From: Eubacteriales bacterium | Lineage (GTDB): Bacteria > Bacillota > Clostridia > Lachnospirales > Lachnospiraceae | DNA: 55,746 nt | Assembly (NCBI GenBank): GCA_030536995.1 | Contig: JAUNOY010000019.1 | Coordinates: 1-55,746 of the forward strand | Reading direction: 5' to 3' | In this document: positions 4,931 through 55,746 of the stretch, piece by piece | How positions within the stretch are numbered: position 1 is the first letter of the stretch | Layout: every line of letters starts with the position of its first letter | Made by a program: the position numbers and the translations under genes | Notes under the pieces: generated by a model | Databases searched by the model: none | Told to the model about the DNA's origin: nothing | What the model saw: only the letters and a program-made list of their open reading frames with translations

Positions 4931-5449
4931 ATGGCAAATCCAGTAGTTACTATTACAATGGACAACGGCGATGTAATGAAAGCGGAATTATATCCGGAAA
5001 TCGCACCTAATACAGTAAATAATTTCATCAGTCTTGTAAACAAAGGCTTTTATGACGGTCTTATTTTCCACCGTGTTATCAATGGATTCATGATTCAGGG
5101 CGGCTGCCCTGACGGAACAGGAATGGGCGGTCCGGGATATACAATTAAAGGCGAATTTTCCCAGAACAGATTTAAAAACGATCTGAAACACACACCAGGT
5201 GTTCTGTCTATGGCACGTGCAATGCACCCCGATTCTGCAGGAAGCCAGTTCTTTATCATGCATCAGACATCTCCGCATCTGGACGGTTCCTACGCTGCTT
5301 TCGGAAAAGTTATCGAAGGTATGGATGTCGTAAATCGTATTGCAGAAGAAGATACAGATTATCAGGACAGACCTCTTGATGAACAGAAAATCAAATCTAT
5401 GACTGTTGAGACTTTTGGTGTGGATTATCCAGAACCTGAAAAATTATAA
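4931..5449 (+). CDS. Cyclophilin-type peptidyl-prolyl cis-trans isomerase
   Basis: Cyclophilins speed cis-trans isomerisation of Xaa-Pro bonds in folding proteins. The 172-aa product lacks a signal peptide, so it is cytosolic. Visible family motifs are the catalytic [13 protein letters not shown] (Arg in FHR), [26 protein letters not shown] and [12 protein letters not shown]. The start is preceded by AAAGGA, and the gene has its own promoter at 4855-4883 and a terminator at 5463-5499, so it appears monocistronic. It belongs to the PpiB group. Confidence 0.93.
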
Positions 5450-5462
5450 ATAAAAACCTGCT

Positions 5463-5499
5463 AAACGGGGCCGCATACTGCCGTATGTGCCCCGTTTTT
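5463..5499. terminator. Bidirectional intrinsic terminator
   Basis: Long stem AAACGGGGC...GCCCCGTTT, with inner CGCATAC/GTATGTG, followed by TTTTT on the plus strand and A-rich DNA on the other side. It lies between the converging cyclophilin and YigZ genes and can serve both. Confidence 0.85.
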
Positions 5500-5502
5500 G
5501 AA

Positions 5503-6159
5503 TCAGTCATCAAAAAGCTCAATCTCTCCGTTTACTTTCGCAAAATACAGATCTTTTTCTTTTTTCATACGTGCACGTCCGTTTGTCCCCTCAGTCACTG
5601 CCTTCTGTACACATTCCACCTCATCTGCAGGAATCATCATATGCAGCATTACTTTATCTGTGTATTCACTGTCCAGAATCGGAAGTCCCCTTTCACCGGC
5701 AATATACTGAATCTTCCCAATTCCTGTATAATCTGTAATAACTTCAAGTGAAATCCCGTAAACTTTCTCAATAATCGTACTCTGTGCCAACCCTTCCTGA
5801 ACAGATTTTGAATACGCCCGCACCAAGCCACCGGTTCCAAGAAGTACACCTCCAAAATAACGGGTAACCACAACTGCCACATTGTAGATATCTTCTCCCA
5901 GAATTACATCCAACATTGGTCTTCCTGCAGTTCCCGACGGTTCACCATCGTCACTGCAGCGGGTGAATTCACGGTTTTTTCCCACTGAATACACAAAACA
6001 GTTATGTCTGGCATCCCAGTATTTCTTACGCATCTCTTCTATAAAAGCCAGAGCCTCCTCTTCCGTCTTAACAGAACGCACAGTTGCTATGAAACGAGAT
6101 TTTTTCTCCACGATCTCCCCTTCTCCGCCCTCATATACGGTCTTATATCTTTCCAACAT
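5503..6159 (-). CDS. YigZ/IMPACT family protein
   Basis: 218-aa cytosolic protein of the YigZ (UPF0029/IMPACT) family, with the N-terminal IMPACT domain (residues about 15-125) and a C-terminal DUF1949 ferredoxin-like domain (about 140-195). Typical segments are KSRFIATV, ARHNCFVYS, RCSDDGEPSGTAGRP and TRYFGGVLLGTGGLVRAYS (19 residues). Eukaryotic IMPACT regulates translation through GCN1/GCN2; the bacterial role is not established. GGGAGG precedes the ATG. It converges on the cyclophilin gene and shares its terminator. Family assignment is firm, function unknown. Confidence 0.9.
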   Translation of the reverse strand: MLERYKTVYEGGEGEIVEKKSRFIATVRSVKTEEEALAFIEEMRKKYWDARHNCFVYSVGKNREFTRCSDDGEPSGTAGRPMLDVILGEDIYNVAVVVTRYFGGVLLGTGGLVRAYSKSVQEGLAQSTIIEKVYGISLEVITDYTGIGKIQYIAGERGLPILDSEYTDKVMLHMMIPADEVECVQKAVTEGTNGRARMKKEKDLYFAKVNGEIELFDD

Positions 6160-48161: not shown

Positions 48162-49817
48162 ATGAAAACAAAAAACACTTTTAAACCGATGCTGCTTACT
48201 TCTCTGAAGAATTATTCAGCGTCACAGTTTACCCGTGATGTTATTGCGGGAATTATTGTTGCGGTAATCGCGCTTCCACTGTCTATCGCACTTGCACTTG
48301 CTTCCGGTGTAGGACCTGAAGCAGGTATCTATACAGCGATTGTAGCAGGTTTCGTGATTTCTGCACTTGGCGGAAGCACCGTACAGATTGCCGGTCCTAC
48401 TGCCGCATTTGCCACGATTGTCGCCGGAATTATTGCTACAGACGGCATCGATGGTCTTGTTATGTCAACTATTCTTGCAGGTATTATTCTTATCATTATG
48501 GGATTTTGCCGCTTCGGAGGACTGATCAAATATATTCCTTATACCATTACCACAGGTTTTACCTCAGGTATCGCGGTTACGATTGTTATCGGACAGTTTA
48601 AGGATTTCTTTGGAATCACCTATCCGAAAGGCACTGTTGCTATTGAAACTACCGAGAAGCTTTCTGCTTTCATAGAAAATATTTCTACACTTAACACAGA
48701 TGCATTGATTGTCGGCGGCGTCAGCCTTGCAATTTTAATTATTTCGCCTTATATTTTCAAAAAAATTCCGGGATCCCTCATTGCAGTTATTGCCGGAATC
48801 CTGATGGTACAGTTCCTTCCACTGGAGGTTGCAACCATCGGAAAACTTTATACCATCAGCAATGACCTGCCATCCTTCCACCTTCCGGAATTCAGTTTCC
48901 ATATGGTTGAACAGGCTCTGCCAAATGCTTTTACCATTGCAATTCTGGCAGCTATCGAGTCCCTTTTGTCCTGCGTTGTCGCAGACGGCATGACAGGTAC
49001 GAAACATCGTTCCGATATGGAGCTTATAGCGCAGGGTGCAGGAAACGTGGCTTCCGCTCTGTTTGGAGGTATTCCTGCTACCGGAGCAATCGCAAGAACA
49101 GCCGCAAATATCAAAAACGGCGGACGTTCTCCTGTCGCAGGTATGGTTCACTCCATTACTCTTGTAATTGTTCTCGTTATACTCATGCCTTATGCCGGAA
49201 TGATTCCAATGCCTACAATTGCAGCTATTTTGTTTATGGTTGCTTATAATATGTGCCAGTGGAGAACTTTCAAACGTCTTGTTCAGACAGCGCCCAAAAG
49301 CGATATTGCTGTTCTGGTCATTACCTTTGTTCTGACCGTTGTATTTGACCTTGTTGTAGCTATTGAGGTTGGTATGATTCTTGCCTGTCTCCTGTTCATC
49401 AAACGAATGAGTGATGAAACTCAGGTTAAAGGCTGGACTTATATCGACGATGACAGTAAAGAAATTAACAGACATTTAAGAGAATTGCCCCGGGAAATCC
49501 GCGTTTATGAGATTACAGGTCCTCTGTTCTTCGGCGCTGCCGATGCCATTGAAAAAATCCTCTTTAAGGATTTCACCAAATGCCTGATTCTTCGTATGAG
49601 AAGCGTTTCGGCGCTTGATATTACAGCTATGAACGCACTTGACGAGCTTGCTGATAAATGTCTGGAAAATAATATCACTCTGATTTTTTCCCATGTCAGC
49701 GAACAGCCTATGCGCGTAATGGAAAAAACCGGATTTATACGCAAAATCGGCAAAGAAAATTTCTGCAAAAATATTGCTGCTGCGCTGAAAAGAGCAGAAA
49801 ACCTGCTGGAAAAATAG
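48162..49817 (+). CDS. SulP-family inorganic anion transporter with STAS domain
   Basis: 551-aa membrane transporter of the SLC26/SulP family. The N-terminal core (RDVIAGIIVAVIALPLSIAL, 20 residues; GPTAAFATIV) is followed by about 12 helices. The cytosolic C-terminal STAS domain (about residues 430-545) includes MRSVSALDITAMNAL. Substrates in the family are sulfate, bicarbonate or other anions and cannot be told from sequence. GGAGGGAG lies 13 nt before the ATG; the longer frame from 48054 would run through the promoter. A terminator follows at 49831. Confidence 0.9.
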   Translation: MKTKNTFKPMLLTSLKNYSASQFTRDVIAGIIVAVIALPLSIALALASGVGPEAGIYTAIVAGFVISALGGSTVQIAGPTAAFATIVAGIIATDGIDGLVMSTILAGIILIIMGFCRFGGLIKYIPYTITTGFTSGIAVTIVIGQFKDFFGITYPKGTVAIETTEKLSAFIENISTLNTDALIVGGVSLAILIISPYIFKKIPGSLIAVIAGILMVQFLPLEVATIGKLYTISNDLPSFHLPEFSFHMVEQALPNAFTIAILAAIESLLSCVVADGMTGTKHRSDMELIAQGAGNVASALFGGIPATGAIARTAANIKNGGRSPVAGMVHSITLVIVLVILMPYAGMIPMPTIAAILFMVAYNMCQWRTFKRLVQTAPKSDIAVLVITFVLTVVFDLVVAIEVGMILACLLFIKRMSDETQVKGWTYIDDDSKEINRHLRELPREIRVYEITGPLFFGAADAIEKILFKDFTKCLILRMRSVSALDITAMNALDELADKCLENNITLIFSHVSEQPMRVMEKTGFIRKIGKENFCKNIAAALKRAENLLEK

Positions 49818-49964: not shown

Positions 49965-49994
49965 AACCCTCTCAGGAATCTTCCTGAGAGGGTT
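49965..49994 (-). terminator. Intrinsic terminator of the phage late operon
   Basis: Perfect 13-pair stem AACCCTCTCAGGA / TCCTGAGAGGGTT with a short loop, followed by TTTTTT on the minus strand. It lies about 140 nt after the endolysin gene. The 318-nt gap 49818-50135 holds this, the sulP terminator and no gene. Confidence 0.88.
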
Positions 49995-50135
49995 ATAATT
50001 TTGCTGTTTAATAATAATTCTTCTGATAATAAAATTATCGTTTAGGCAATTTATAGAGAACTGAATATGTTGATTTTACAATAAAAATCAAAGGCTTGTT
50101 TCTAGTATGTATCTAATATGATACTAACGGATATA

Positions 50136-51407
50136 TCAGGACAGAATCCTATTTACAGTCTTCTGCACTTCATCAGCATCATACCCTGACGCTTCAAGTT
50201 TCTTTCTTCGTGCTTCGCCATTTCCCCACTTACCTGCAATGACTTCCTTCGCCACCGCTTCAAGGGATTTCTTCCCAGACAGAATCCAATTGACTTTTTT
50301 CTGGACTGCATCGAAATTATAACCCGCCTGAATCAGTCTTCTTTTTCGTTCAGAGCCATTTCCCCATTTCCCTTCGAGAACTTCTCTTGCTACTTTATCA
50401 ACAGATTTATCAGGTTTGGATGGTTCAGGTGCAGATGCAGGTTCATCATCGTACTTTGGAACTGCATATCCTCTGATGTATCTTCCATTAATTTTGAGTT
50501 TACGTCTTCCAACAGAATCTCGGATGTTCCCTTCTATGATTGTGGCATAACCACCTGATACACTTTCAACAAATCCAACGTGTTCTGTTCCACCGATGCA
50601 ATCACCTTCTCCTGTGTCATCCCAATCGTAGAACACGATGTCAGCTTCCTGTGGAACATAGGAATCATCTTCCACCCAACATCCGATTTTTTTGAACTTC
50701 TCAATCATCTGATTACATCCGCACTCGGTTGGAATGATTTTGGTATAACCAAGAATCAGGGACACTGCGGATACATACGTAGCACACCACGCATCACGAT
50801 AGGTCACTCTATACCCTCTAGGAAGTGGATTCTGCTTATTATACACATCAATAATCTTACGATGTGTTCCATCACTTTCTTTACATCCATACCATGCTTT
50901 TGCCTGCTTGATGACTGCTTTTCTGCTATACATTATATTCCCTTCTTTCTTATCAAATCGTGTCAGGTCATACTGTTCAATTACTTTCATATTATCTTTT
51001 ACATAAGTAGATGATGTAGCATAACCATCTGCTTTAATTGTTTCAAGATATGTCAAAGGGTCTGTGATTCCTTTCAAGTTGGAATATCTCGGAAGCTGAA
51101 TAAATTCAAAATACCCCTTGATTCCATCCTTCATTGAATCATAGACCCTGAAGTTATCTTTAATTGTAGTCTGAACACCGACCTGATATTCTTCTTGTGT
51201 TGTCATATTTACACTTTTTCCTGTCCACTTTGTCCTGCATTTCATCCCGAAGTAATTGTGATACTTGGATGACAGGGTGGATTTGCCCCACCCCGATTCT
51301 AAAATAGCCTGTGCAATAATAGGGCTATGGACAAGAATTCCATATTTTTTAGCATATTTTTTCACATAATATGCGACTTTCTCAATGAATTCCTGCTGTT
51401 CCTTCAT
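50136..51407 (-). CDS. Phage endolysin: glucosaminidase + CHAP + two CW_7 repeats
   Basis: 423-aa modular lysin. Residues about 1-150 are a glucosaminidase domain (HSPIIAQAILESGWGKSTLS, 20 residues; YHNYFGMKC). Residues about 155-310 are a CHAP-like amidase/peptidase with Cys in YRDAWCATYVSAV and His in TEHVGFVES. Two C-terminal CW_7 (Cpl-7) wall-binding repeats each carry a GKWGNG motif. The two catalytic modules suggest dual cutting of glycan and peptide. AAAGG eight nt before the ATG at 51407 is the best start; it overlaps the holin gene by 26 nt. No signal peptide, so release depends on the holin. Confidence 0.9.
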   Translation of the reverse strand: MKEQQEFIEKVAYYVKKYAKKYGILVHSPIIAQAILESGWGKSTLSSKYHNYFGMKCRTKWTGKSVNMTTQEEYQVGVQTTIKDNFRVYDSMKDGIKGYFEFIQLPRYSNLKGITDPLTYLETIKADGYATSSTYVKDNMKVIEQYDLTRFDKKEGNIMYSRKAVIKQAKAWYGCKESDGTHRKIIDVYNKQNPLPRGYRVTYRDAWCATYVSAVSLILGYTKIIPTECGCNQMIEKFKKIGCWVEDDSYVPQEADIVFYDWDDTGEGDCIGGTEHVGFVESVSGGYATIIEGNIRDSVGRRKLKINGRYIRGYAVPKYDDEPASAPEPSKPDKSVDKVAREVLEGKWGNGSERKRRLIQAGYNFDAVQKKVNWILSGKKSLEAVAKEVIAGKWGNGEARRKKLEASGYDADEVQKTVNRILS

Positions 51408-51825
51408 GTTCTTCACCTTTCATCGTTAATACGTCAATCGCTTTACTGATAGCATCAGGAAGCGGAAGCCCCATAAGTCCCGCATTTTCCACGATGGAAA
51501 TTAGTTCATTCGCAATAAATCCGATAATTACCGCATCCCTAATATAACTGACACCAAGTGCAAGGTCTAACCTATAAGCTATAAGGACGAATAATAGGGT
51601 CATACTTTTTCTGCATAATCCTTTCCATCCTGCTCTGCTTTCCAAAGTCCCTGTCTTGGTCTTGTTGCTGTTATGGAAAACACCTGCGACTACCAATCCT
51701 GATATGTAGTCAATAATCATAAAAATTAATAATGTAATCAAACCTGTGTCCCATCCACCGAAGCATGATGCTATGAATGACCCACAGACACCAATTCCAG
51801 TGCAAATTCCTTCCTTCACGTTCAT
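51382..51825 (-). CDS. Phage holin
   Basis: 147-aa membrane protein of the phage_holin_4 (toxin secretion/lysis) family. The N-terminus MNVKEGICTGIGVCGSF is followed by two or three predicted helices (about residues 20-40, 75-95, 100-115) and the family segment MIIDYISGLVVAGVFHNS (18 residues). The ATG at 51825 matches the family start; ATG 51846 is an alternative. It overlaps the endolysin gene, as is usual for lysis cassettes. It forms the membrane lesion that lets the endolysin reach the wall. Confidence 0.85.
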   Translation of the reverse strand: MNVKEGICTGIGVCGSFIASCFGGWDTGLITLLIFMIIDYISGLVVAGVFHNSNKTKTGTLESRAGWKGLCRKSMTLLFVLIAYRLDLALGVSYIRDAVIIGFIANELISIVENAGLMGLPLPDAISKAIDVLTMKGEEHEGTAGIH

Positions 51826-51846
51826 TCTCTTAACCATTCCTTTCAT

Positions 51847-51880
51847 AAAATATCCCACAGGTCTGTTCACCTGTGGGATA
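51847..51880 (-). terminator. Terminator-like hairpin ahead of the lysis cassette
   Basis: Perfect TATCCCACAGGT / ACCTGTGGGATA stem, six-base loop, then TTTT on the minus strand directly before the holin start region. It could reduce or time lysis gene expression. Confidence 0.75.
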
Positions 51881-51886
51881 ATCGTG

Positions 51887-52012
51887 CTACTCTGCTAATT
51901 CAGGGCAATCAAGGTCAATAAGTACTTGTTTTACCTGTTCCTTAATTCTTGCAGGAACATCAGCATATTTTTTCACACCTTTGATGATAAGCGTTGCATA
52001 AACTACTGCCAT
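51887..52012 (-). CDS. CD1375-family phage protein (copy 1)
   Basis: 41-aa protein of the CD1375 family, a short conserved protein of Clostridia phages with no known function. Segments AVVYATLIIKGVKKYADVPA (20 residues) and IKEQVKQVLIDL match its paralogue. A strong GAAAGGGGGTG precedes the ATG at 52012; an upstream ATG at 52072 would overlap the other copy's stop. Lies before the holin gene. Confidence 0.72.
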   Translation of the reverse strand: MAVVYATLIIKGVKKYADVPARIKEQVKQVLIDLDCPELAE

Positions 52013-52068
52013 ATCATACACCCCCTTTCTAAACATAAGATTTACAATTAAAAAGATTTTGGTCAGCA

Positions 52069-52176
52069 TCATTCAACACCTTCCAAAATCTTTTCAACTT
52101 CTTTTCTTAACTTTTCGGGAACTTGGTCAATTGTTTTAATTCCCTTCTTAATTAAATCAGCGTAAACTTTCGCCAT
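52069..52176 (-). CDS. CD1375-family phage protein (copy 2)
   Basis: 35-aa protein, clearly related to copy 1 (AKVYADLIKKGIKTIDQVPE, 20 residues, then KLRKEVEKIL). AAAGGGG precedes the ATG at 52176. The product length matches the family. The stop TGA at 52069-52071 sits just before the other gene's leader. Tandem duplicates of this family are common in such phages; function unknown. Confidence 0.78.
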   Translation of the reverse strand: MAKVYADLIKKGIKTIDQVPEKLRKEVEKILEGVE

Positions 52177-52198
52177 AACTGAGACCCCTTTCCTATTC

Positions 52199-52462
52199 TT
52201 ATACCAGAATCATTTCATACACTTCTGTCAAAGCAACCTGTGTGTCTGTTACTTGTTTTTCAAGTGCAGTATTTTTTTCATTCTGCAATTTAATATATTC
52301 GTCCTTGTCATATTCCATAAGGTTGAATTCATATTCTTGATATGATTCATTTTCATGATTTACTGTAACCTGATGAATTTCTGTTGCGATAAACACCTTT
52401 TCAGATGTCACTTCCATTTCTTCAGGCATAACAGCACTTCGCTGTGTCCCATAGTCTTTCAT
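52199..52462 (-). CDS. Uncharacterised phage protein downstream of the reverse transcriptase
   Basis: 87-aa acidic protein. The C-terminal half is likely coiled coil (YIKLQNEKNTALEKQVTDTQ, 20 residues). The start overlaps the reverse transcriptase stop by 41 nt, and GAGGA stands five nt before the ATG, so it is a real gene. It does not resemble the DGR accessory protein Avd (about 120 aa, basic four-helix bundle). No family recognised. Confidence 0.65.
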   Translation of the reverse strand: MKDYGTQRSAVMPEEMEVTSEKVFIATEIHQVTVNHENESYQEYEFNLMEYDKDEYIKLQNEKNTALEKQVTDTQVALTEVYEMILV

Positions 52463-53522
52463 TATTCCTCAATCCTTTCTTAATGATATTTTCATAATAT
52501 CTGACAGCGTGCGGAATCAAAGGTTCAATATATTTCTTTTGTAATTTAGCCGAATTACAGTAAATTAACCACCCTTTGTATGAGTTGACTGAACACCATT
52601 CTGAATAATTCATCAGGTTTCCTGATTGAACCTTCTTTCTGATTGCTGTCATTTTCTTTTTCATCTGGACACATGTTGTCTTTCTCAAAAGAACATAGTC
52701 CATGAAAATTCTATAGCCAAGGAAATCGACACCCCTGATGTATGTAGGAAAGACTTGGTGGTTGTCTTTCACTTTCAATTTCAATTCATCATGGAAGAAT
52801 TCTTTGATTTCCTTTAACAAGATGTGAAGGTCATCCTTGGATTCACCAAAGATGACGATGTCATCCATATATCTATGATAATGCTTGACACCCTTGACTT
52901 CCTTAATCCAATGGTCAAACGATGACAGATAAAAATTCCCTGACCATTGCGATAAGTAGTTTCCAATCGGAATGCCAGTTCCACCTTCAGTTGAATCAAT
53001 GATTTCATCCAACAACCACAGCAAGTCTTTGTCCTTGAAAATCTTTCTATATTTCAATTTAAGAATGTGATGGTCTATTGATGGATAATACTTCCTAGCA
53101 TCTAGTTTCAAGCAATACTGACATCCTTTGACATCAGTTCGCATGTCACGAATCACACGATTCAACCCGAAATGTATTCCCCTATCAGGAATCGCTGAAT
53201 AGGTGTCAATCGTGAGATTATTTAATAAGATAGGTTCGATAACCTGCATAATCGCCCACTGACAAATTCTGTCAGGAAAATAGGGAAGTTTATAGATTTC
53301 CCTTTCCTTAATACCATCTTTCTTTATAAAGACTTCATATTTTGAAGTTTGATAGGTATGATTGACAAGCATGTCCTGAATCTGTTTTAAATAGTATTCA
53401 GGGTTTTCATCAACCATCTTCACCTCTCCGTACCAACCTTTTCCCTTCTTCGCATTCTTATGTGCAAGGATAAGGTTATTCATATCGTAAATCTTGGAAT
53501 ATAGATTTCCGTATCTTTTCAT
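52422..53522 (-). CDS. Diversity-generating retroelement reverse transcriptase
   Basis: 366-aa reverse transcriptase. Visible motifs are LKLDARKYYPSID (first catalytic Asp at about 141), GIPIGNYLSQWSGNFYL (183 onward; the IGNxxSQ form is typical of DGR reverse transcriptases), catalytic RYMDDIVIFG (YMDD 218-221), and GVDFLGYRI further on. No maturase (X) or endonuclease domain is seen, unlike group II intron proteins. The ATG at 53522 is preferred over GTG at 53546. It lies directly after the template repeat and copies the template RNA with errors at adenines, feeding the variable repeat of the upstream gene. The 87-aa gene follows by overlap. Confidence 0.93.
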   Translation of the reverse strand: MKRYGNLYSKIYDMNNLILAHKNAKKGKGWYGEVKMVDENPEYYLKQIQDMLVNHTYQTSKYEVFIKKDGIKEREIYKLPYFPDRICQWAIMQVIEPILLNNLTIDTYSAIPDRGIHFGLNRVIRDMRTDVKGCQYCLKLDARKYYPSIDHHILKLKYRKIFKDKDLLWLLDEIIDSTEGGTGIPIGNYLSQWSGNFYLSSFDHWIKEVKGVKHYHRYMDDIVIFGESKDDLHILLKEIKEFFHDELKLKVKDNHQVFPTYIRGVDFLGYRIFMDYVLLRKTTCVQMKKKMTAIRKKVQSGNLMNYSEWCSVNSYKGWLIYCNSAKLQKKYIEPLIPHAVRYYENIIKKGLRNNERLWDTAKCCYA

Positions 53523-53702
53523 TTTAGGTTCACTTTCTGTATGCACAAAGCCAAGTCTTCACATCTATATGTTACCAACACAGCTTCTTGATGTTTTACC
53601 TTCACCACTTTCTCAGGTGCGGGATTTCTATGTTCTGCCAAGGGGCAAGGTCAAATGATTTCAGTTTTATATAAAACAGGGATATTCTGAAGAACACCCC
53701 TG
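53523..53702 (-). other. Spacer between template repeat and reverse transcriptase
   Basis: On the transcript this stretch follows the TR and precedes the reverse transcriptase gene; in known DGRs this part of the RNA primes and guides cDNA synthesis. Inverted repeat AAAACAGGG (53673-53681) / CCCTGTTTT (53698-53706) with 16 nt between lies right at the TR 3' edge. No gene is seen. Confidence 0.5.
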
Positions 53703-53826
53703 TTTTGTGCATTTACTAACTGACTGCTGATATTACGATTACGATTACTGACACTGTTATTCAAATTCCAATAGAAAGTACCTGCATTACTGCCATTATT
53801 CCAATTACTGCCTAATTGAGCAATTG
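53703..53826 (-). repeat. DGR template repeat (TR)
   Basis: Copy of the target gene's 3' end lying between target and reverse transcriptase. Aligned with VR at an offset of 227 nt. In the core 53715-53825 (111 nt) it differs at 21 positions, all adenines on the coding (minus) strand: 14 A>G, 4 A>T and 3 A>C by my count. In 53703-53714 five more adenine changes and one C>T occur. Asn (AAT/AAC) and Ser (AGT) codons mark the diversified positions. Confidence 0.95.
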
Positions 53827-53901
53827 ATTTTTTTGTCAATTGGTTTGTTGCAGGCAACTACAACAGGTAATAATAAAAGCAATCACTTGACCTACAATAT
53901 A

Positions 53902-55746
53902 TTAAACTACTTTATGGGCAATTGTTGCAGTCGGTACATACACCAACCGACCGCCGATAATACGATAACGAGTACCGACACCGTAAGTCAAAGCCCAATA
54001 GAAAGCACCCGCACTACCGCCATTATTCCAACTACCGCCCAATAGAGCAATTCTATAACCATTGAGATTTTCGGTAATATAGGTGTAGTCACCAACAGGT
54101 AAGGAACTGTTCCCAAGACATTCAGATGCCATAAATAACCAGTCGCAAGTGGTTGAATATCCCATTGCTGAAATATAGCCTGCTTTTGGTGTAACAGTGA
54201 ATCCCGCAGGAACATAATTTCCATCATTTTTTGATTCAGTATAGTTGAAGTCAGTACAGATATAAGGCTGACCACCATCCATCTTTCCGTTCCCCCAAAT
54301 ATTCACACCATAGATAAATTTCCAAATGTTACCCCATGGATTTTCAAGTCCACGATATGTGATTGATGTTTTTCCATCAATAGTGTACTCTTTAGCAACA
54401 CCACCTTCATAGGTTGTTGTTCTTTCTGCTCTTCCTGTTCCGTTTCCAAGTGCAGAAGTAGAACCTGTGACACCTGCGTAAGAACTTGTTTTGTCTGTCC
54501 CTGTTTCCCAAGGAAGTGTGACAACTCCCTGACCAATTGGTTTCTGAAGTTCCATCTGTCCATATTCAATCATCATCAACAACTGATTCATAGATGCGAT
54601 TTTTACGTTTTCAAGGTGAAATCCTGCACCTCTGTTTCTTGCCATCTGTTCAATATTTGGTCTTGTCAGGTTATGAGTTTTACCAGATGCAGGTCTAGCA
54701 CCTGCGATTGAACTGAACTTGTCCCCCGTTGATGCAGTAAAATCACCGACCTGTTCATCATCGAGAAGGTAAGCCTTCGCAGATGTGTCATAGATACAAC
54801 CTTCAAAAGCACCCATCAGGATGTAATCAACCTGATTTCCATTTTCATCATAAAACGCAGGATGCAGTCTGAAACCTGCTCTTGGTTTCGCTGATACATA
54901 ATAATTCGCTTTTCTCAAATGATAACCGATTCCTGTTGTCTTGATTGGGTCATAGACTACTGGACATACGAGATAATAAAAAGCAGGCTGATATACCATA
55001 ACCTGACCATGGGAACCATCCTCTTTGTATTCAGGGTCACCATGATAGCAAAGAATGTTTCCGTTATCATCAACATTGCATCTTTTACGTCCCCCGAACA
55101 TTGGGAATTTGTCGAAATCTGCGCCCGCTGTTAAATTAACAGCACCTGCGATTCTCTTGAAAGTCTTATTTCTATAGTCAACCTGAAGACCAAGGATATC
55201 CACATCAGATAAACCAAGGTATGCCCTTAAATCTGCTACACCTGCAAGGATTTCCTGACTGTTAAAGTTTTCACTTCTCAGTTCCTTGATATTAGATAAT
55301 GCTGAAACATTCTCTGCTGTTAGGGACTGAAGGGTTGCTTTTGACAAATCGTTTGAAGCGTCCAATGCGATTTTAGCATCATTTGCTGTTCTAACTGATG
55401 CAGACAGGTCTGTGATGACTTCGTTACCTGAATCAATAATTCCCTGAAGTGCGGTCTTTGCTTTATCTGCATTCGTGATAGCAGTTTCAAGATTTCCTTT
55501 TAGTGTTTTTGCGGTATCATTCGTAGTGTTAAGATTGTTTTTGATAGATGTTGCTGATGCAATTACTTCATCTAACTGTGTTTTTGCAGTATTCGCAGAC
55601 CTAACAACACCTTCCAGTGTTGTCTTCGCTGTGTTCGCATTCTTAATAGCAAGGTTTGCATCAGTGATTGCTTTTTCAACATTACCTTTCACAGTATTCG
55701 CATTCTGTGTGGAAGTGTCTAACTGCGTTTTCACAGTATTCGCATT
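53902..55746 (-). CDS. DGR target: tail-fibre-like protein with C-type lectin-like variable domain (5' end missing)
   Basis: At least 614 aa, open to the window edge. The N-terminal 150 residues seen are coiled-coil repeats with many Ala, Asn, Thr and Lys. A middle domain follows (FPMFGGRKRCNVDDNGNIL, 19 residues; YQPAFYYLVCPVVYD). The C-terminus is of the FGE/CLec type (LENPWGNIWKFIYGVNIWG, 19 residues; GGSWNNGG; RLVYVP). The last part is the variable repeat. Such proteins in phages bind host surfaces; this is likely the receptor-binding tip. Gene order is target, TR, reverse transcriptase. Confidence 0.9.
   Translation of the reverse strand, partial: NANTVKTQLDTSTQNANTVKGNVEKAITDANLAIKNANTAKTTLEGVVRSANTAKTQLDEVIASATSIKNNLNTTNDTAKTLKGNLETAITNADKAKTALQGIIDSGNEVITDLSASVRTANDAKIALDASNDLSKATLQSLTAENVSALSNIKELRSENFNSQEILAGVADLRAYLGLSDVDILGLQVDYRNKTFKRIAGAVNLTAGADFDKFPMFGGRKRCNVDDNGNILCYHGDPEYKEDGSHGQVMVYQPAFYYLVCPVVYDPIKTTGIGYHLRKANYYVSAKPRAGFRLHPAFYDENGNQVDYILMGAFEGCIYDTSAKAYLLDDEQVGDFTASTGDKFSSIAGARPASGKTHNLTRPNIEQMARNRGAGFHLENVKIASMNQLLMMIEYGQMELQKPIGQGVVTLPWETGTDKTSSYAGVTGSTSALGNGTGRAERTTTYEGGVAKEYTIDGKTSITYRGLENPWGNIWKFIYGVNIWGNGKMDGGQPYICTDFNYTESKNDGNYVPAGFTVTPKAGYISAMGYSTTCDWLFMASECLGNSSLPVGDYTYITENLNGYRIALLGGSWNNGGSAGAFYWALTYGVGTRYRIIGGRLVYVPTATIAHKVV
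53930..54053 (-). repeat. DGR variable repeat (VR)
   Basis: Recipient copy at the 3' end of the target gene, ending about 25 nt before its stop. Compared with TR, Asn codons have become Ser, Ala, Thr, Tyr or Ile and Ser codons Gly, while Trp, Phe and most Gly codons are conserved. Codons hit at both first and second positions (AAT to GCT) show repeated mutagenic copying. Confidence 0.95.
55687..55746 (-). repeat. 42-nt period repeats in the tail-fibre coiled coil
   Basis: TTTCACAGTATTCGCATT occurs at 55687-55704 and 55729-55746, 42 nt (14 residues, two heptads) apart. Similar weaker copies occur near 55580 and 55620. They encode the repeated Ala-Asn-Thr segments of the N-terminal coiled coil. 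Confidence 0.7.

Follow-up and report, generated by a model that had tools for sequence, protein, structure and literature searches.

To our knowledge, how the reverse transcriptases (RTs) of diversity-generating retroelements (DGRs) come to mutate adenines only is an open question, studied mainly on the element of Bordetella phage BPP-1, which is arranged mtd-avd-TR-brt. In that element the variable repeat (VR) lies at the 3' end of the tail-tip gene, the template repeat (TR) precedes the RT gene, an endolysin gene follows close behind the RT gene, the mismatches between the repeats are adenine-specific and the RNA around the TR is structured. Here we describe a DGR at one end of contig JAUNOY010000019.1 of an Eubacteriales bacterium (Lachnospiraceae); the contig as a whole, 55,746 bp, is the window of this analysis. 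The element resembles that of BPP-1 in each of these respects, its structured RNA being a helix (P1) and a hairpin for which sameness of structure is not implied. It differs in having no match to Avd, in having no counterpart of the GRNA-loop hairpin that BPP-1 uses after the VR (PMC3240598, in the portion available), and in the fate of TR adenines that stand before a guanine (AG adenines): all 10 of those in the window are G in the VR, compared with 12 of 26 in the BPP-1 clade. The first-pass annotation, made from the letters alone, had read the element in the light of known DGRs of the BPP-1 type, to which it does not belong, having neither Avd nor the hairpin; a DGR without an accessory gene has already been published, according to the accessible part of PMC4159848. 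We think it likely that the branch of DGRs to which the window belongs, consisting of two RT clades (W, with the window, and M), evolved a two-class template code: A before G is read as G in about 96% of cases, templates store invariant G as A, and homing both randomises sites and restores the scaffold.

The two repeats align by program, ungapped, over a core of 116 nt with 23 mismatches, each of which falls on one of the 40 adenines of the TR core and none on an A of the VR; the probability of all 23 landing on 40 of 116 positions by chance is 7.8e-14. The first-pass annotation had counted 21 mismatches, all at template adenines, in 111 nt, and this restriction persists in the longer core. 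Over the full 124-nt intervals that it gave there are 28 mismatches, of which 26 are at TR A and two at TR C near both ends. Its observation of a DGR is confirmed: an RT with IPIGNYLSQ and YMDD motifs is accompanied by the program-aligned repeats, and the VR sits inside the 3' end of a tail gene, its core ending 32 nt from the stop codon. An adenine-masked TR pattern (up to 3 mismatches) matched only the TR and the VR in the 2.83-Mb genome, with 0 matches for the reversed pattern; no second VR or TR was found elsewhere in that genome, and a 54-nt TR segment in masked form had 0 matches in viral_contigs. The 23 mismatches comprise 10 AG adenines that became G, two fixed differences at the 3' end (GTA AAT in the TR, GTG TAT in the VR) and 11 of random type. 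Among related TR/VR pairs, the 43 of 75 that have a common 3' motif carry T at column +4 (43/43) and G at column +3 (41/43), and the fixed VR/TR 3'-end differences are taken as putative initiation of mutagenic homing (IMH) and IMH* sequences, respectively.

The comparison drew on relatives of the window RT (the best 80 of 153) and on loci collected with the RTs of BPP-1, L107, Versailles and LBR48 as added DGR queries (67, 68, the best 80 of 86, and 38 loci). At a loose threshold, our repeat finder returned a repeat in 93 of 103 loci of window-RT relatives, several being poor, and gave no repeat in L002, the locus of another RT of the same genome; a stricter filter (no more than 2 mismatches at non-A and 12 or more at A) was passed by 86 of the 101 loci besides the window (L001) and L002. 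For loci with other RT types some repeat was returned in 220 of 259, and in LBR48's own region the finder located no TR/VR. In a tree of 187 dereplicated RTs of at least 290 aa that adjoin TR/VR pairs, with L002 as the sole outgroup, the window RT is nested among the others. Clade W has 52 tips (support 0.92), clade M 30 (0.98) and W+M 82 (0.991); the remaining named clades are V, K, C and B, the last being that of BPP-1. Further TR/VR pairs were assigned to clades by 4-mer similarity. Named members of W+M come mostly from Clostridia and Bacteroidetes.

TR-adenine columns in the 43 of 75 pairs are of two classes, one with mixed bases and one nearly always G, and the following base decides between them: adenines before A, C or T become mixed, and those before G become G. 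In 62 pairs close to the window, 356 of 362 AG adenines are G; A is kept at 365 of 773 sites before T and at 276 of 719 before A. Counts by clade cover 262 of 264 pairs, including 11 that fall in none of the six named clades. AG adenines are G at 372/387 sites in W and 76/81 in M, and at 0/7 in V, 6/25 in K, 15/44 in C, 12/26 in B and 12/25 in unplaced pairs. The four clades V, K, C and B together have G at 33 of 102 AG sites and retain A at 63. Fisher tests of W+M against these four gave P values of 5.7e-45 for all sites and 5.5e-11 for four-fold degenerate ones; these tests assume independent sites, an assumption that holds only in part. When read from the VR side, a G that precedes a fixed G corresponds to A in the TR at 370/858 positions in W and 76/229 in M, a frequency expected if template AG and GG mean the same; the corresponding counts are 0/174 in V, 6/204 in K, 14/288 in C and 12/460 in B (0-5%). 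The AG share of TR adenines is 0.168 in W, 0.093 in M and 0.014-0.044 in V, K, C and B. AG sites of natural VRs in clade B are A 14, G 12, C 0 and T 0; a tendency to 'G if changed' at AG thus seems to hold beyond W+M, though clades C and K show a few C or T, and W+M is close to always.

Five named crAss-like phages (cr6_1, cr55_1, LMMB, cr53_1 and cr52_1), compared outside the RT tree, have G at 33 of 38 AG sites. As in the window, their TR lies between the VR gene (a tail protein in 4 of 5 annotations) and the RT gene; unlike the window phage, they belong to another order of phages, and their RTs are about 41-48% identical to the window RT. The closest named phage RT, at 55%, is that of Psychrobacillus phage Perkons, where TR and VR were found and 2 of 3 AG sites are G; Perkons differs in being a 136-kb phage with an unannotated VR target. 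The stretch counted for Versailles contains no AG site, and VP58.5 and Arawn keep A at the single AG site that each has.

An ordinary A-to-N DGR, in which AG adenines are randomised like the others and selection on the protein leaves G only, could produce the same VRs. In the window, the 10 AG changes comprise six Ser to Gly, one Gln to Arg and three silent ones, and four of the seven non-synonymous changes, all of which give Gly or Arg, fall at positions (G227, G254, G255 and R256) at least 90% conserved in 29 aligned target domains. Selection on the protein does not explain the rule, however, because four-fold degenerate AG sites are G at 46/47 in W and 20/20 in M (66/67 together) as against 13/32 in V+K+C+B; the first such test used 71 of 75 pairs, L022, L049, L084 and L101 being without a frame. 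Four-fold sites in AT context in W (n=41) still keep A at 26, with C at 4, G at 10 and T at 1. Furthermore, the other clades change a similar share of their non-AG adenines (medians 0.52-0.60 across all six clades) and nevertheless keep A at 63 of 102 AG sites. We regard selection as an improbable source of the pattern, though the best placed of the alternatives. Two further sources were considered. A 3'-end artefact was rejected, as the rule persists with the last 30 or 40 nt omitted (with 40 nt omitted, W 267/279 and M 63/67). The weight of shared descent was lessened by counting one pair per TR family (<85% identity), which gave W 136/146, M 47/50, V 0/3, K 6/19, C 8/20 and B 5/10.

RNA editing, by which a deaminase would turn TR A-before-G into inosine and the RT would read inosine as G, would yield exactly the A-to-G change that is seen. 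The rule nonetheless tracks the RT clade across Clostridia, Bacteroidetes, other groups and crAss-like phages, and it is absent in other DGR clades, whose members include L107 (an RT of the window's genus) and a Bacteroides phage; we hold editing to be slightly more doubtful even than selection. Three RT residues (366-aa numbering) are typical of W+M and occur at no more than 2% in V, K, C and B, namely T59 (76/82), Y81 (73/82) and S109 (76/82). They go along with the AG rule, and any role for them would be hypothetical. F202, W205 and Y189 were dropped as W+M-typical residues, being present also in clade V or K.

A third possibility is that the DGR is dead or converts in patches, so that the VR simply keeps an ancient G and the TR/VR differences are fixed. 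Such fixed differences do occur over the last ~12 nt of the two repeats. This reading is very unlikely, for AG sites flanked on both sides within 15 nt by changed adenines are still G at 344 of 356, and relatives with identical TRs carry different VRs. There are 14 pairs of W/M loci in which the shared stretch of the two TRs shows no difference; within these pairs the VRs are unlike at 172 of 305 non-AG adenines (a figure slightly raised by the prior removal of exact duplicate VRs and two near-duplicate rows), at 5 of 62 AG adenines and at 10 of 851 other bases. The VRs of L076 and L077, two loci with the same TR, show 18 differences, every one at a TR adenine that precedes a base other than G; over W+M as a whole, only 34 of 7265 non-A TR positions differ in the VR. 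Such elements are active, since these differing VRs go with identical TRs and differ almost only at TR adenines. The VR variation at constant TR that the first-pass annotation proposed as a check is thereby seen in relatives, not in the window phage itself.

The RT's own affinities concern the remaining alternative. The best PDB matches are 8ub7 and eight sister entries (121.8 bits), whose chains are labelled just 'Reverse transcriptase' and which we take to be BPP-1 bRT in an RT-Avd complex; if so, the BPP-1 RT is the nearest solved relative. At 48.5 bits, the RT of a group IIC intron ranks next. The RT scores 104.8 bits with the group II maturase model, below its cut-off of 300, and 44 bits against a cut-off of 235 with St85, the one retron model among the matches listed. 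The other RT of this genome (L002, 1366-2760; motifs SPQGG and YADD) is a group II intron RT at 407.8 bits. An origin from a group II intron or retron, with coincidental repeats, has a negligible chance of being right, its sub-threshold maturase score being outweighed by the 73-bit margin of 8ub7, the position in the tree and the A-only mismatches. Identification of the element as a DGR is thus supported, and the RT falls outside group II, the placement named beforehand as one that would have overturned it. Most relatives' alignments start at or near residue 9 of the 374-codon form of the RT, which is the ATG position.

We consider it very likely that the element is an Avd-less phage DGR whose helix-closed TR RNA is copied with mixed bases at A before A, C or U and with AG written as GG, the resulting cDNA replacing the VR. 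The RNA bearing the TR would be closed by a helix between the pre-TR leader and the spacer, followed by a conserved hairpin, and the RT would presumably bind this leader-TR-spacer RNA and copy the TR. It would insert mixed bases opposite template A before A, C or U and, after copying G, insert dC nearly always opposite template A before that G. Such a dC could arise if the RT slipped back and used the preceding template G a second time. Re-use of a template base has been proposed for BPP-1 in AC contexts, in the available text of PMC12875486. The cDNA would then replace the VR up to the fixed IMH-like 3' end. By this scheme the TR codons AGT, AGC, CAG, TTA before G and GCA before G would appear as GGT, GGC, CGG, TTG and GCG in nearly every VR, and AAY codons would be randomised. 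Transcription, RNA binding, priming, cDNA integration and the RT (rather than an RNA editor) as the cause are what we infer here.

The proposed helix, P1, brackets the TR by pairing a leader arm with a spacer arm. Like the TR/VR pattern, the diversification among relatives and the AG rule with its clade limits, its covariation is read from aligned sequences. In 49 loci (of 60 dereplicated loci, one of which, L090, is without an arm) cognate arms pair with a mean score of 8.12 and non-cognate arms with 4.28, and 0 of 20000 permutations reached the cognate mean. Of the 49 arms, 19 have the leader of their own locus as the single best partner, because related loci share arms. For the 41 leaders whose best site starts with GG, all ten variable columns exceed shuffles in Watson-Crick pairs, eight of them by at least 10 and with up to four pair types; the permutation test is the real control, since sites for the column counts were picked by best fit. 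A role of P1 as a DNA target signal was rejected, as in 12 of 12 W/M loci that carry the spacer hairpin motif and have the VR at least 250 nt from the TR the arm scores higher beside the TR (1-19 nt) than beside the VR, clearly in L075 and L344 and weakly in the 10 M loci. RNA control of DGR reverse transcription is reportedly the subject of a 2025 Nature paper, which may cover the RNA part.

The strict spacer hairpin motif is found in W 66/73, M 16/41, K 16/27, V 3/23, C 1/42, B 0/47 and unplaced 1/11 loci, with 0 for the reversed control; the window's own copy is without the A-tail that the strict search demands. Many relatives have a hairpin immediately 3' of the TR, as the window does, with another sequence, and others are without one. 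No BPP-1-like perfect-stem GRNA-loop hairpin was found after the VR in the window or in the loci of W (0/73), M (0/41), V (0/23) and K (0/27). It is present in B (12/47) and C (35/42), and 16 of 27 K loci have a different 4-nt loop. The Avd model PF22296 had 0 matches in the window's own genome (92% complete) and none in any of 12 records retrieved with this RT as query (possibly fragments), and it matched 3 of 3 control records of the BPP-1/L107 type; the Versailles-type and LBR48-type records (one each) gave no match. In M loci the gap between VR and TR has a median of 435 nt. One of them, L098, has a 120-aa open reading frame (ORF) at 5360-5722 between VR and TR, with no Pfam match at E 0.01 and thus no recognised bAvd, that may encode a different accessory protein.

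Several observations weigh against this account. The rule has exceptions, AG adenines being other than G at 15/387 sites in W and 5/81 in M; these are spread such that 89 of 106 W/M loci have G at all AG sites and 17 have at least one AG site not called G (in L039 only one, an N). The count for clade V rests on 7 AG sites, and AG sites share columns by descent, a kinship that the TR-family counts lessen and do not remove. Near the window A before C is also often G (115/157), and we kept it out of the rule because it is G at just 4 of 7 four-fold sites in W. The VR of the window phage is known as one sequence, and the evidence is sequence comparison. P1 scores weakly, at 5.0-6 of 10, in the 10 M loci whose VR lies far from the TR. 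Finally, the text of PMC12875486 at hand puts BPP-1 dG insertion at NAG at 0.08% and gives no dC rate at NAG for bRT, which limits the comparison with that enzyme.

The DGR and the genes beside it occupy the last 5.6 kb of the contig (Table 1), in the order VR-TR-RT for the element itself. Holin, endolysin and tail gene adjoin, in agreement with the prophage setting first proposed, and the contig stops inside the prophage, leaving the tail gene without its N-terminus. The closest RT relative among the matches listed, at 77%, is that of L003 (IMGVR_UViG_2886817950_000001), a temperate phage whose 37-kb record holds an integrase, repressor, terminase, tape measure, phrog_5302 tail family protein and endolysin. 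Because that record carries an integrase, a repressor and phage structural genes, the owner of the DGR is likely a temperate phage. L003 shares with the window the phrog_5302 tail family, the VR-TR-RT order, the same RNA elements and the lack of any AG exception; it differs in TR/VR sequence and in endolysin type, and its record extends to integrase and repressor, beyond what the truncated window can show. A second copy of the attachment site sought in the window's own genome gave weak matches only, and an Rfam search of 50000-55746 gave 0 matches.

Table 1. Features of the DGR and the adjoining prophage genes in the window
Feature	Position	Strand	Basis
Target gene, tail protein; VR in 3' end, 5' part lost at contig end	53902..55746	-	ORF; phrog_5302 tail protein, E 2.1e-89
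Variable repeat (VR), 116-nt core	53937..54052	-	Program alignment; apart from TR, sole genome match to masked TR pattern
IMH-like fixed VR 3' end, GGTTGGTGTATG then TACC	53933..53948	-	Flanks; column counts +4 T 43/43, +3 G 41/43 pairs
P1 5' arm GGTCAAGTGATT, between target stop and TR	53881..53892	-	11.5/12 with cognate arm
Template repeat (TR), 116-nt core	53710..53825	-	Program alignment
IMH*-like TR 3' end AGTTAGTAAATG	53710..53721	-	Flanks and column counts
Hairpin immediately 3' of TR, AACAGGG...CCCTGTT	53675..53704	-	By eye from sequence
P1 3' arm AATCATTTGACC, in spacer	53649..53660	-	Pairing with P1 5' arm
Conserved spacer hairpin TGCC-CCTT-GGCA	53636..53647	-	Motif search across loci
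DGR reverse transcriptase, 366 aa from ATG (53522)	52422..53522	-	ORF, profile, PDB, tree; GTG at 53546 gives 374 aa
Small ORF, phrog_18126, overlaps RT 3' end	52199..52462	-	ORF; phrog match without assigned function
CD1375-family small ORF	51887..52072	-	Family match
Holin	51382..51870	-	PF05105, E 1.7e-35
Endolysin: glucosaminidase, CHAP, CW_7 repeats	50136..51416	-	Domain matches

The VR gene may encode the host-binding tip of the phage and so act in receptor binding, as was inferred at first. A C-type lectin fold of the target domain would be conjectural: Pfam matched 0 of 29 members, and hhalign of the domain to Mtd gave a probability of 1.2%. The N-terminal part of the tail protein contains a series of similar short, NANTAKTxL-like segments with a weak SMC match, perhaps a coiled coil. 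Elsewhere in the window, a 30-nt stretch at 49965-49994, between the prophage and a permease-like gene ending at 49817, matches its own reverse strand at 93% and is perhaps a terminator hairpin, and two adjacent tRNA-Ser genes lie at 153-359 on the - strand.

The element is thus of a known kind, with a clade-wide decoding rule that we have not found described: titles and abstract openings returned by literature searches contained no description of the AG rule, most DGR biochemistry lying outside that scope. In its accessible part, PMC6642488 gives about half of replaced adenines as becoming G and mentions no context; further background on DGRs is available in the parts consulted of PMC8144416, PMC11792537, PMC8143477 and PMC8867640. 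A near-deterministic adenine context in one clade and not in others offers a comparison for what sets the error spectrum, and the AG behaviour of W+M goes with neither a recognisable Avd nor the target hairpin of BPP-1. Counts of DGR diversity would change as well: in the window, 10 template adenines, out of 40 in all and 23 mismatched, would no longer count as random sites. If the code is as we propose, some conserved Gly and Arg residues of the target protein are not encoded by the TR, and each homing event would restore them.

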